From: an uncultured Ignavibacteria bacterium
GTDB lineage: Bacteria > Bacteroidota > Ignavibacteria > SZUA-365
DNA: 43,485 bases
NCBI GenBank assembly: GCA_913061095.1
Contig: CAJXVM010000031.1
Span: 1 to 43,485 of the forward strand
Reading direction: 5' to 3'
Shown here: positions 6,873-27,164 of the stretch, one piece after another
Layout of the letters: every line of letters starts with the position of its first letter
Numbering within the stretch: position 1 is the first letter of the stretch
The notes under the pieces: generated by a model
What the model was told of the DNA's origin: nothing
Seen by the model: the letters and a program-made list of their open reading frames with translations, nothing else
Databases searched by the model: none
Position numbers and translations under genes: made by a program

Positions 6873-6982
6873 TGTCGGGTGACCACACGCTCACGCGTGT
6901 GGATACCGCCGGCGGCTCGGGATGTCGGGTGACCACACATTCACGCGTGTGGATACCGCTAGCCACACCCGTCAGGGTGTGG
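6873..6982. repeat. Hairpin cluster with GTGA-type tetraloops, two tandem units plus one relative
   Basis: Two copies of a 37-bp unit (6873-6909 and 6923-6959, two mismatches) are spaced exactly 50 bp apart. Each contains a hairpin: CCACACGC-TCAC-GCGTGTGG at 6883-6902 and a slightly mispaired copy at 6933-6952. On the minus strand, the coding direction, the loop reads GTGA. A third hairpin, CCACACCC-GTCA-GGGTGTGG, follows at 6963-6982. The cluster lies just past the stop of the GH18-like gene (7000) and could act as a terminator or mRNA-stabilising structure. There is no T-tract. It is related to the hairpins at 11163-11192 and 26743-27081. Confidence 0.8.
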
Positions 6983-6999
6983 ACACGGACGCTCCGCCA

Positions 7000-8544
7000 C
7001 TAGCGAACAACAATAAACGGCCGTACCGTCCGCTCCCCCGCCGATGTCAGCTCCAGCAGATATGTGCCTGCGCCGACATCACGCAGCGGCAGCGCCGCGC
7101 GTTCATCCCCCCGAAAAAGACTTTTCTCCCAGAGGATACGTCCCAGCAAATCGCGCATCACCAGGCGCGCCTGTCCACCCGCCGGGAGGGTGAAACGGCA
7201 GTGCGCGACGCCCTCCGCCCGCACGGGCTGGGGATACACGTCGAGCGCAATCCCGCCGGCCAGCGGCGGCTCAGCGACCGTGGTCGTGCGCGTGAAGCTG
7301 CGCGCGAGCAGATCCCACAGCTCCGGATGCTCGCCGTCATAGCCGAGCGCCCACATCCCCGCGCCGGCGATGCCGAGATTCTTCACGAGTTCGTACTTGT
7401 ATTCGAGGCTTTCGGCGTCGTCGTACCAGACCTGCCGCCAGTCCGCCACGAGATACGGGAACCAGGGATTCAGAAAGACCGTGCTCCACCGGCGATCATG
7501 GCTCTGCAGCATCTCCTGAACGCGTGAATAGGTGCGCGCCTGTCCCCTGCCCTGCGTCGAGGACTGTGGCGCCTCCGAGACCACCGGCCAGTCGTAGCCG
7601 TAATACGGCACGCCCATGACCATGCGTTCGGCGGGGATGCCGTTCTGCAGCCAGGTGGTGAGACTGCGCGTGACGTTGTACGTGCTGCCCTGCAGGGGAG
7701 CGACCGGACCGGCGGTACTGCTGCCCGACCACCAGTAATCGTAGCACATGATGAAGAAGATGTCGATGTGCTGCGCGAGGGCTGCGGCGTTCCACGAGTC
7801 GCTCCAGTCCACCGCGGGAAGGGCGGCGCTGATCTCCGCATCAGGCAGTTCCGACGCGAGCGCCGCGTCGAGCGTGGCGAAGAATGCGGTGAGGTTGTCG
7901 CGCTGATCGCCCGGCACCGCCTCGAAATCGATGTTCACGCCGTCGGCGCCGCGGAGGCGCATGAGTTCGATCAGGCGGCGCACCAGCGTGTCCCGCGCGG
8001 CGGGTGATGACAGCAGCGTGCGGTTGGCGGAGGCGCCGAAGTTCGTCGCGACCAGGTGCACGCGCACACCCGCCGCCTTCGCGCTGTCGATGACCGGCGA
8101 AACGAGCCATCCGTAATAATCGGCGATTTCACCGCTGCCGGGATCCACCGCCGCGCCGAAATACGCGAAATGAGAGAGCAGCTCGAAACGATAGAACTCT
8201 GCCGCCGCGTCGGGAATCCAGTACGGGTGGTAACCGAATACGGTGTGCGTGAGATCGGCATCTTGCGTGAGATCGGCATCTTGCGTGAGATCGGCATCTT
8301 GCGTGAGATCGGCATCCGCGGAGCGGCGAAGGGCATGCAGCTGTTCAGACGCGGCAGGCCGGCCGGGACTTTTGTCCGGGGAGGAAAGACGTGGCGCCGG
8401 GCGCGCGGCCGACTGCCGGGCATGCGGCATGGATGTCCGCTCGCGCAGCAGCTCCCGCGCGGAATCCTGCGCGCGCATGGACGGTGCGGCCGGGAAGCAC
8501 AGCAGGACCGCAAGAACAAAACGCATACGGACAGGGATGTTCAT
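7000..8544 (-). CDS. GH18-family-like secreted glycosidase with T9SS sorting domain
   Basis: 514 aa. The N-terminal signal peptide is MRFVLAVLLCFPAAPSMRAQ; the start may be ATG 8544 or the internal ATG at 8526. Residues about 76-99 are a run of DADLTQ repeats encoded by an 18-bp tandem repeat. The GH18 TIM-barrel domain spans about 102-420, with DGVNIDFE at 201-208. This matches the DxxDxDxE catalytic signature except that the second Asp is Asn; the catalytic Glu and preceding Asp are present. FGYHPYW and MCYDYWW are typical of YdhD/spore-cortex-like and chitinase-like GH18 proteins. The last 85 residues (LDVYPQPV...GTYLLEL...) form a T9SS sorting domain. It likely acts on chitin, peptidoglycan or another N-acetylglucosamine polymer at the surface. 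It starts 7 bases after the stop of the eIF-2B-like gene, so it is probably co-transcribed. Confidence 0.85.
   Translation of the reverse strand: MNIPVRMRFVLAVLLCFPAAPSMRAQDSARELLRERTSMPHARQSAARPAPRLSSPDKSPGRPAASEQLHALRRSADADLTQDADLTQDADLTQDADLTHTVFGYHPYWIPDAAAEFYRFELLSHFAYFGAAVDPGSGEIADYYGWLVSPVIDSAKAAGVRVHLVATNFGASANRTLLSSPAARDTLVRRLIELMRLRGADGVNIDFEAVPGDQRDNLTAFFATLDAALASELPDAEISAALPAVDWSDSWNAAALAQHIDIFFIMCYDYWWSGSSTAGPVAPLQGSTYNVTRSLTTWLQNGIPAERMVMGVPYYGYDWPVVSEAPQSSTQGRGQARTYSRVQEMLQSHDRRWSTVFLNPWFPYLVADWRQVWYDDAESLEYKYELVKNLGIAGAGMWALGYDGEHPELWDLLARSFTRTTTVAEPPLAGGIALDVYPQPVRAEGVAHCRFTLPAGGQARLVMRDLLGRILWEKSLFRGDERAALPLRDVGAGTYLLELTSAGERTVRPFIVVR
8247..8315 (-). repeat. 18-bp tandem repeat inside the GH18-like gene, about 3.8 copies
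   Basis: The unit GCGTGAGATCGGCATCTT (plus strand) occurs at 8247, 8265 and 8283 and partially at 8301-8315, apparently without mismatches. It stays in frame and encodes DADLTQ in the linker between the signal peptide region and the catalytic domain. Perfect identity points to recent slippage expansion and possible length variation between strains. Confidence 0.9.
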
Positions 8545-11112: not shown

Positions 11113-11162
11113 GGGGGAAAGACGTGAGAAGCGTGGAGGATCGGGCGGATCGGGCGAAATGC

Positions 11163-11192
11163 GATAGCCCCACCCGTGAGGGTGGGGCTATC
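11163..11192. terminator. Perfect 13-bp hairpin with GTGA loop after sdhB
   Basis: Perfect stem GATAGCCCCACCC / GGGTGGGGCTATC with loop GTGA at 11176-11179. It begins 30 bases after the sdhB stop. No T-tract follows on the minus strand, so it may be a processing or stability structure rather than a classical terminator. Its core CCCCACCC-GTGA-GGGTGGGG belongs to the same hairpin family as 6873-6982 and 26743-27081. Confidence 0.75.
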
Positions 11193-11222
11193 TGAAACGT
11201 CGATAAGAGCGATTTACCTGAA

Positions 11223-25821: not shown

Positions 25822-26745
25822 GTGACCAAATCGAAAAAGGTTCTCGGCAAGGGACTCGGCGCGCTGATTCGTCCGGAGCCCGAAGCGGAAGAGGAAATCA
25901 GCCTCGAGCCGACCCCGGAGACGCAGGACGACGGGGTCTCGGTGGAGATCATGGCGCATGTCGCCGTGGAGAAAATCTCGGCGAATCCCTACCAGCCCCG
26001 GCAGGATTTCGATCCGCAGGAGCTGCGCGAGCTGGCACAGTCCATCACGGAAAACGGTCTCGTGCAGCCGGTCACCGTCCGCCGCTGGAAGGACGGCTTC
26101 CAGCTGATCTCTGGCGAGCGCCGCGTGCGCGCCTGCCGGGAGGCCGGGATCAGCCACATTCCCGCCTACATCCGCCAGGTGGAAACCGACGAGGAAATGC
26201 TGGAACTCGCGCTGGTGGAAAACATTCAGCGTACCACACTGAATCCCGTGGAAATCGCGCACTCCTACCAGCAGCTGGTTGAGACCTACGGCCACGCGCC
26301 GGAGGACATCGCGAAGCGCGTCGGCAAGGATCGCAGCACGGTGGTGAATTTCATCCGTCTGCTCAAGCTCCCGAAGAAAATCCTCACAAGCCTGCAGAAA
26401 GGCGAGATCAGCACGGGACATGCCCGGGCGCTGATCACGCTGCCCGACGAGCGCGCGCAGCTGCACATGTGGCAGCGCATCGTGCGCGACGGACTTTCAG
26501 TGCGCAAGACCGAAGAGCTGGCAAACAGCATTTACCGGCGCTCCGGCACTCCCGAGCCGGCGAAGAAGAAGAAATCACCCCCCCGCAGCAGCACGCCCCA
26601 TCTCGAAGAGCTGAGCGAGAAACTCAAGCCCGTCTACGGAACGCGCGTGCACATCACGGCCGGGAAAGACGGCCGCGGAACGATCTCGCTCGAATTCTAC
26701 AACGACGAGGATCTCGAGCGCCTCCTCGAACTGCTCCTGAAATAA
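25822..26745 (+). CDS. parB: Chromosome-partitioning protein ParB/Spo0J
   Basis: 307 aa with GTG start at 25822. N-terminal GKGLGALI box; a ParB/Srx nuclease-like CTPase domain with NPYQPR and SGERRVRACREAG (the C-motif that contacts CTP); and a central helix-turn-helix (EDIAKRVGKDRSTVVNFIRLLKLP region) for parS recognition. A Lys/Pro/Ser-rich linker leads to the C-terminal dimer domain. No match to the usual parS palindrome TGTTTCACGTGAAACA was noticed in the window. Its stop codon TAA (26743-26745) is also the first three bases of the 50-bp tandem array, so the array abuts or invaded the 3' end of the gene. Confidence 0.96.
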   Translation: MTKSKKVLGKGLGALIRPEPEAEEEISLEPTPETQDDGVSVEIMAHVAVEKISANPYQPRQDFDPQELRELAQSITENGLVQPVTVRRWKDGFQLISGERRVRACREAGISHIPAYIRQVETDEEMLELALVENIQRTTLNPVEIAHSYQQLVETYGHAPEDIAKRVGKDRSTVVNFIRLLKLPKKILTSLQKGEISTGHARALITLPDERAQLHMWQRIVRDGLSVRKTEELANSIYRRSGTPEPAKKKKSPPRSSTPHLEELSEKLKPVYGTRVHITAGKDGRGTISLEFYNDEDLERLLELLLK

Positions 26746-27081
26746 CCCCACGCGTGAGCGTGGGGACCACCCCGTCCACCGCACGACACATGTAACCCCA
26801 CGCGTGAGCGTGGGGACCACCCCGTCCACCTCACGACAAATGTAACCCCACGCGTGAGCGTGGGGACCACCCCGTCCACCGCACGACACATGTAACCCCA
26901 CGCGTGAGCGTGGGGACTACCCCGTCCACCGCACGACACATGTAACCCCACGCGTGAGCGTGGGGACCACCCCGTCCACCTCACGACACATGTAACCCCA
27001 CGCGTGAGCGTGGGGACTACCCCGTCCACCTCACGACACATGTAACCCCACGCGTGAGCGTGGGGACCACCCCGTCCACCT
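26743..27081 (+). repeat. 50-bp tandem hairpin array behind parB (six full units plus partial)
   Basis: Units start at 26743, 26793, 26843, 26893, 26943, 26993 and 27043 (the last partial). Each begins TAA, then CCCCACGC-GTGA-GCGTGGGG: a perfect 8-bp stem with a GTGA loop, which as RNA is a GNRA tetraloop. A spacer rich in CCACCCCGTCCACC follows. Units differ at only three sites: C/T in ACCAC/ACTAC, G/T before CACGAC, and one C/A. The array would form the 3' untranslated part of the parB mRNA. The spacers are identical between units and no cas genes are present, so it is not CRISPR. Together with the terminator it fills the 419-base gap 26746-27164. Confidence 0.95.
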
Positions 27082-27087
27082 GATTCC

Positions 27088-27128
27088 AAAAAAAAAACGT
27101 CCCGCCCACTCTCCGGTGGACGGGACGT
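27088..27128 (-). terminator. Strong rho-independent terminator of the Kelch/Omp28 gene
   Basis: The minus-strand stem ACGTCCCGTCCAC / GTGGGCGGGACGT (13 bp, one G-T pair; arms 27116-27128 and 27097-27109) is followed by a run of ten T. A further small stem, CCGGCC-ACAC-GGCCGG, is at 27136-27151. It separates the converging parB and Kelch/Omp28 transcripts. Confidence 0.92.
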
Positions 27129-27164
27129 CTCACACCCGGCCACACGGCCGGATGAGTATTCAGA

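Follow-up and report, generated by a model that had tools for sequence, protein, structure and literature searches.

A GTAG-type REP family of an uncultured Ignavibacteria bacterium, probably spread as inverted pairs and most likely mobilised by an IS200-like protein

The hairpin repeats found behind a GH18-like gene and behind parB in a stretch of 43,485 nucleotides from an uncultured Ignavibacteria bacterium (contig CAJXVM010000031.1; hereafter, the window) belong to a GTAG-type REP family of this species. We are fairly confident that this family has spread as REPIN/BIME-like inverted pairs, most likely mobilised by the IS200-like protein of C16, and that its direct arrays are local duplications. 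By their sequence, the GH18 and parB units are GTAG-type REP elements, with a tag G[GC]TA[AGT], an 8-bp C-rich stem and a GTGA-type loop. The family and its tags, its spacing rule, the periods of its arrays, its position behind genes, the REPs around the C16 gene and the separate hairpin families around the paralogue of that gene and around the genes of some relatives can all be read directly from the DNA.

Three REPs make up the cluster behind the GH18-like gene, the edge of which is about 10 bp from the gene (Table 1). The unit tgtcgggtgaccacac[gc/at]tcacgcgtgtggataccgc is found at 6873 and again at 6923, and this spacing of exactly 50 bp, equal to the period of the parB array, was correctly recognised in the original prediction. 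On the minus strand the unit consists of the tag GGTAT, an 8-bp stem beginning CCACACGC and a GTGA loop; both copies are identical at 35 of 37 bases, the repetition does not extend to the remaining 13 bp of the period, and the direct repeat is absent from the TRF output at a score of 30. As a DNA hairpin, copy 1 folds better than its shuffles (z −2.66; 4/200 as good) and copy 2 no better than its own (z −0.88; 36/200 as good). The inverted copy 3 and the single REP on the other side of the gene had both been overlooked; the stem of copy 3 is CCACACCC, and its loop centre lies 30 bp from that of copy 2. Model R1, a covariance model of the family that both copies match better than expected by chance, was trained on 35 sequences including the third GH18 unit, the unit at 11165 and one parB unit, copies 1 and 2 being excluded. 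The chitinase-like GH18 reading frame also contains a perfect 18-bp tandem repeat of 3.9 copies (window 8246-8316).

The array behind parB was delimited by TRF at 26743-27081, with 6.8 copies of 50 bp and 96% matches, and the TAA stop codon of parB coincides with the TAA in the tag of the first REP of the array. CRISPR was ruled out for this array, because unique spacers would be expected and it is 96% identical throughout. Behind the array, a hairpin beside an A run (window 27088-27130) looks like the terminator of a minus-strand Kelch/Omp28-like gene.

Table 1. REPs and associated genes in the window.
Feature	Position	Strand	Evidence
REP copy 1, GH18 cluster, G/C stem type	6875..6910	-	model R1 46.7 bits, E 1.9e-10
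REP copy 2, two stem changes	6925..6960	-	model R1 36.1 bits, E 1.9e-7
REP copy 3, inverted, C/C stem type	6955..6990	+	41.8 bits; pattern match 6960-6982
GH18-like gene, 3' end towards cluster	7000..8544	-	Pfam Glyco_hydro_18, 124.5 bits
Single REP, C/C stem type	11160..11195	+	43.6 bits
parB	25822..26745	+	ParB_N and HTH_ParB
Seven direct REPs, period 50	26738..27073	+	37.2 to 38.8 bits each

The core pattern, allowing up to two mismatches, yielded 339 matches in the 4.6-Mb genome versus 65 for the reversed control, and the second (C/C) stem type with its tag yielded 86 versus none. In 82 aligned copies, a GTAG-type tetranucleotide directly precedes the stem on its 5' side in a degenerate form: its first letter is G in 51 and C in 18, followed by T in 72 and A in 77, and the last letter is A in 37, G in 31 and T in 14. 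The columns preceding the stem favour G-C-G-[GC]-T-A-[AGT], and those behind it are weakly constrained. The REP alignment comprises 35 sequences, chosen from 57 non-redundant ones among the 82; stem covariation was 0.250 versus 0.069 in shuffled alignments, with 97.9% of cells paired, and none of 500 shuffles was as high on either measure. Two stem positions covary, with 28 cells changed on both sides.

A weight matrix that found no match in shuffled sequence, even at a threshold below that used, was applied to 70 stretches around hits plus the window (282 kb). It located 260 REPs in 97 clusters, 55 of them with more than one REP; this is no census, because the 71 stretches were picked for holding hits. 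The repeat is thus, as REPs are, a short palindrome present in more than 100 copies and mainly extragenic: 90 of the 97 clusters overlap no gene predicted from codon usage, in stretches that are 83% coding. Several contigs of G000 (C2, C5, C14, C15 and C36) end within or close to REP arrays, probably because the assembly was interrupted there, and the end of C14 and the start of C36 look like one array.

Inverted pairs with inward tags keep a strict spacing, as expected of REPINs or BIMEs: in 46 of 51 adjacent pairs the loop centres are 49-50 bp apart (19 at 49, 27 at 50), and of the 31 clusters with inward pairs, 27 have one at this distance. The remaining five lie at 23, 30, 30, 52 and 136 bp, one of those at 30 bp being that of the GH18 cluster. 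Pairs with outward tags are found at 32-48 bp (44/45), and a composite period of 91 bp, from 50 + 41 or 49 + 42, is common. Most inverted pairs closer than 60 bp (78/94) join both stem types. The spacer cores of inward pairs measure 13 or 14 bp and, for heterodimers with one taken per locus and spacing class, show 33-41% identity across loci versus 25% when shuffled; since they are weakly alike, the spacing would be held by old descent, by a length constraint or by both, and common descent of the inward pairs may explain part of it. The spacers of two loci, L140 and L172, are identical, and these loci may be parts of a single array that the assembly divided.

Pfam Y1_Tnp was found at three places in the genome. 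The HUH/Y1 protein of C16 (C16:102169-102621; Y1_Tnp, 85.8 bits) has 151 amino acids, its start being set by likeness in an open frame that continues through REPs, and carries the motifs DHIH and YIQNQEEHH. It scored 67.7 bits with the IS200 model of NCBIfam (cut-off 55) and 21.8 bits with the RAYT model NF047646 (cut-off 80), and its YIQNQEEHH motif does not conform to Y---NP. Eleven perfect hairpins of the family flank the gene, two on one side and nine on the other. This association alone is not decisive, because some 5% of genes taken at random would have one of the 97 clusters within 1 kb. A paralogue on C8, 52% identical to the C16 protein, has its own hairpins on both sides of the gene, which share the loop type of the family (GTCA, GTGA or ATGA) but have another stem, CCCCGAC, and the tags CATAG or CGTAG; these occur at six places in the genome, five of them at the C8 gene. 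Both proteins contain the HuH and Y---Q--HH motifs and, set beside the published description, are TnpAY1 of subclass 1.2 by motif. There are two gene copies, 52% identical, and not the several near-identical copies of an IS200/IS605 element, and PADLOC returned no match for either protein. A Y1 gene between cognate REPs on both sides, as in a REPtron, was found at C16, at C8 and in the relative G399.

Each gene also has an inner hairpin pair close to it (L009:1349-1369 and 1944-1964 at C16; L010:1277-1293 and 1958-1974 at C8), with related stems, GCCCGCCG and GTCCGCC; these pairs may represent the ends of the element itself. Among 236 loci, the C16 form recurs exactly at one other place (L131).

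The genome also encodes, on C5, a RAYT proper (99.6 bits with the RAYT model, cut-off 80) beside a weaker one of 48.7 bits (L011:1435-1962 and 2077-2718). RAYTs are known to partner GTAG REPs (PMC3733652), and the class-2 RAYT of C5 could in principle mobilise the REPs, the C16 and C8 genes having come to lie within or next to hairpin arrays by chance. We regard this as unlikely: the 3.3-kb stretch surrounding the C5 genes has no repeated hairpin, and the hairpins of C8 and of the relatives G321 and G251 are almost confined to the transposase gene, for which chance landing offers no explanation. Among the matches listed (the first 100 of 339; 150 of 2717 candidates scored), the family REP nearest to the C5 RAYT is about 11.6 kb away.

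Matches to the C16 protein at E 1e-15 occur in 158 of 395 genomes of the phylum. We examined 49 genes of relatives, which are among the best-scoring matches and not a random draw; the subclass 1.2 motifs were recognised by pattern in 29/29 (L076-L104) and in 17/20 (L195-L214). Repeated hairpins flank 15 of the 49 genes versus 1 of 19 shifted controls (p 0.029), a twentieth control, L189, having been dropped for overlapping another C16-protein match. By set, they flank 10/29 in the first (p 0.032 versus 1/19), which was inspected before the control was fixed, and 5/20 in the second (p 0.18). One hairpin family is present on both sides of the gene in 8/49, counted at true gene positions (the stretches of L079 and L202 are incomplete and not both-sided), and 34/49 have no repeated hairpins by the test used. 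Repeated hairpins were detected at 3 of 9 further loci (L222, L226 and L229; the weaker G399 loci L230-L232 lay outside the scan). None were seen at L220, L221, L224, L225 and L228, although these loci come from members of the same genus, family or order.

The relatives differ in how far their hairpins extend beyond the gene. All the hairpins of G251 and G321 (6/6 in each) are located at the transposase gene, and in G399 each side of the gene carries three copies, those of the two sides being inverted, with GTGA as the loop and CCCACGCC as the stem. G402, from the same taxonomic family, contains 39 copies of CCCCACAC-GTGA-GTGTGGGG in 11 regions; the largest region is at its own subclass-1.2-type gene, with 11 copies no more than 1 kb away, ten to one side and a single weaker one to the other, and the probability of a random gene lying that near a hairpin region is about 0.006. 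Model R1 at E 1e-4 matched 3 of 61 genomes, the source genome included, and had no match in the other four genomes of the genus; the absence of the REP family from relatives is provisional, because filters were strict and at most 113 candidates were scored per genome. At E 1e-6, those four genomes have no full-length counterpart of the C16 protein, and one contains a fragment with 41% identity. A scan of genome contigs yielded three distant loci, the best of them in an Ignavibacteriae MAG with 36% identity.

The four R1 matches in G035 correspond to a related but double-footed hairpin. One such hairpin per side, TATAGCCCC...GGGGCTATA, accompanies a subclass-1.2 gene of that genome (L223:1426-1455 and 1985-2014), a locus that fails the repeated-hairpin test, and hairpins of the form TTAACCCCACGCTTAAGCGTGGGGTTAA appear at other sites (L215, L217-L219). 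In G140, CCCACGACTTAAGTCGTGGG is found at five scattered places on five contigs and is possibly another dispersed family; the best subclass-1.2 gene there has other flanking hairpins.

An evenly poised broader reading is that subclass 1.2 constitutes, alongside the RAYTs, a second lineage of transposases associated with REPs. Its genes would be bracketed by their own hairpin arrays, most families staying at the gene and the hairpins having escaped in some genomes, as in this one in the form of 49-50 bp REPINs and in G402; within the taxonomic family, the GTGA-type loop would be kept and the stem would change with the protein. IS200-like proteins with hairpin arrays only at the gene, and others with dispersed REPs, would then offer comparable and assayable intermediate stages, and the origin of REP-mobilising transposases from IS200-type enzymes is stated to be open in PMC8266576.

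With respect to genes, the clusters occupy 50 codirectional, 18 convergent and 17 divergent gaps, with five at an edge and seven overlapping, and those facing the 3' end of a gene are mostly within 50 bp of it (52/68). The latter would suit RNA-level elements, such as terminators or stabilisers of mRNA 3' ends, multiplied for their function with no transposase involved. We find this improbable, since the gap mix of the clusters is like that of all gaps (101, 27 and 27), the window has no Rfam match at the gathering score, and a conserved unpaired tag and a fixed inverted spacing would presumably be needless for a terminator. Some effect of the REPs on transcripts is conceivable.

Directly repeated neighbours follow no such rule as the inward pairs: 67 pairs are spaced from 21 to 99 bp, and each direct array has one period and its own spacers, with periods of, for example, 21, 36, 48, 50, 55, 63, 64-65 and 72 bp. 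The arrays with periods of 36 and 72 bp comprise 10 copies (96% matches) and 6.5 copies (95%), respectively. The search for a preferred period of tandem copies, proposed with the original prediction, consequently gave a divided answer. Inverted pairs have a rule of about 50 bp; direct copies mostly lack one, with exactly 50 bp in 3 of the 33 clusters with direct neighbours (two of them in the window) and 49-51 bp in eight; 50 bp in direct arrays is not quite meaningless, however, because 48-51 bp (11/33) is the commonest narrow class.

The flanks of the GH18 and parB units had been taken to align with each other, and this did not hold up as a special likeness. The TAnCC at both loci is the tag common to the whole REP family, and the likeness of the 3' flanks, TCACCCGACA and ACCACCCCGT, does not exceed that among REPs in general: of 246 other REPs, 68 fit the GH18 flank no worse than parB does, and an equally high score was reached by 1609 of 3906 random pairs of REPs. 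Because the flank likeness is ordinary and direct arrays have their own periods, a shared direct unit of 50 bp is unsupported. A single mobile 50-bp tandem unit, copied to both loci, is very improbable, and we reject it: the period is exactly 50 bp at both and 48-51 bp in a third of the clusters with direct neighbours, but the two spacers are mutually unrelated and the varied periods of the other arrays largely refute it. What survives of the predicted unit larger than the hairpin is the inward inverted pair at 49-50 bp. In a REP-rich genome, equal array periods at two loci are no evidence of one shared unit.

We return to the REP family, probably spread as inverted pairs, tags inward and loop centres 49-50 bp apart, the mobiliser of which is most likely the IS200-like HUH/Y1 protein of C16, bracketed by the same REPs. 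By analogy with TnpAREP as described in PMC8266576, this protein would bind the folded single strand, the tag would choose the cut, and inverted pairs would move; the strict inverted spacing provides a concrete substrate for tests. Insertion would usually occur close behind a gene, after which a REP and some neighbouring DNA would be duplicated locally, giving each array a period of its own. The near-identity of copies within arrays and the different spacers between arrays support local duplication, and the 50-bp periods at GH18 and parB would thus result from two separate events. As a conjecture, near-palindromic hairpins 50 bp apart might slip against each other and turn an inverted pair into a direct 50-bp array. 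Slippage should leave an inverted tag behind the stem, a trace that only 3 of the 11 direct clusters with spacings near 50 bp show clearly, and the slippage score averages 4.03 in 32 REPs of direct 48-51 clusters versus 3.31 at random positions; slippage stays conjectural because this excess comes largely from the seven parB units and the trace is clear in so few clusters.

REPs and REPINs are known kinds of elements, and the present family resembles several of them. The GTAG REPs, of which 24 families are described in PMC3733652, are likewise extragenic hairpins with a tag 5' of the stem that form inverted heterodimers, as well as large clusters in which singletons or dimers recur together with varying lengths of flanking DNA; we liken our family to them by description. 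Unlike in that account, where variable spacers in tail-to-tail dimers are a rule of thumb, tail-to-tail spacing is strict here and the tag is degenerate (GTAG, GTAA, GTAT, CTAN). As described for the REPINs of Pseudomonas fluorescens SBW25 (PMC3116915), inverted pairs occur at preferred distances, tandem clusters include flanking DNA, and clusters lie beside transposase genes. In contrast to the 71 and 110 bp given for that strain, the distance here is 49-50 bp, the partners are mostly of two stem types, and the adjoining transposase is no RAYT by model or by motif.

The C16 locus recalls the RAYT/TnpAREP REPtrons (PMC2817692, PMC8266576) in that a small HUH/Y1 gene is bracketed by REPs, some families are concentrated at the gene, and protein and hairpin seem to co-evolve; it differs from them in its protein, which lacks Y---NP and scores far better with the IS200 than with the RAYT model. 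That protein and its C8 paralogue instead agree with TnpAY1 subclass 1.2, which is defined by Y---Q--HH (PMC6006769), in their size of about 150 amino acids, the HuH motif DH[IV]H, Y---Q--HH itself and a low copy number, with WS in the C16 protein where the published table has WQ. Among titles and abstract openings of the literature searched, which left subscription papers mostly outside, we found no report of REPs for this subclass, and a term search of papers since 2018 retrieved only PMC6006769. Table 1 of that paper gives "REP: no" for subclass 1.2, whereas both of the two such genes in this genome are flanked by repeated hairpins; judged from these loci, a REPtron built on a subclass 1.2 protein would probably be a new form of these known elements.
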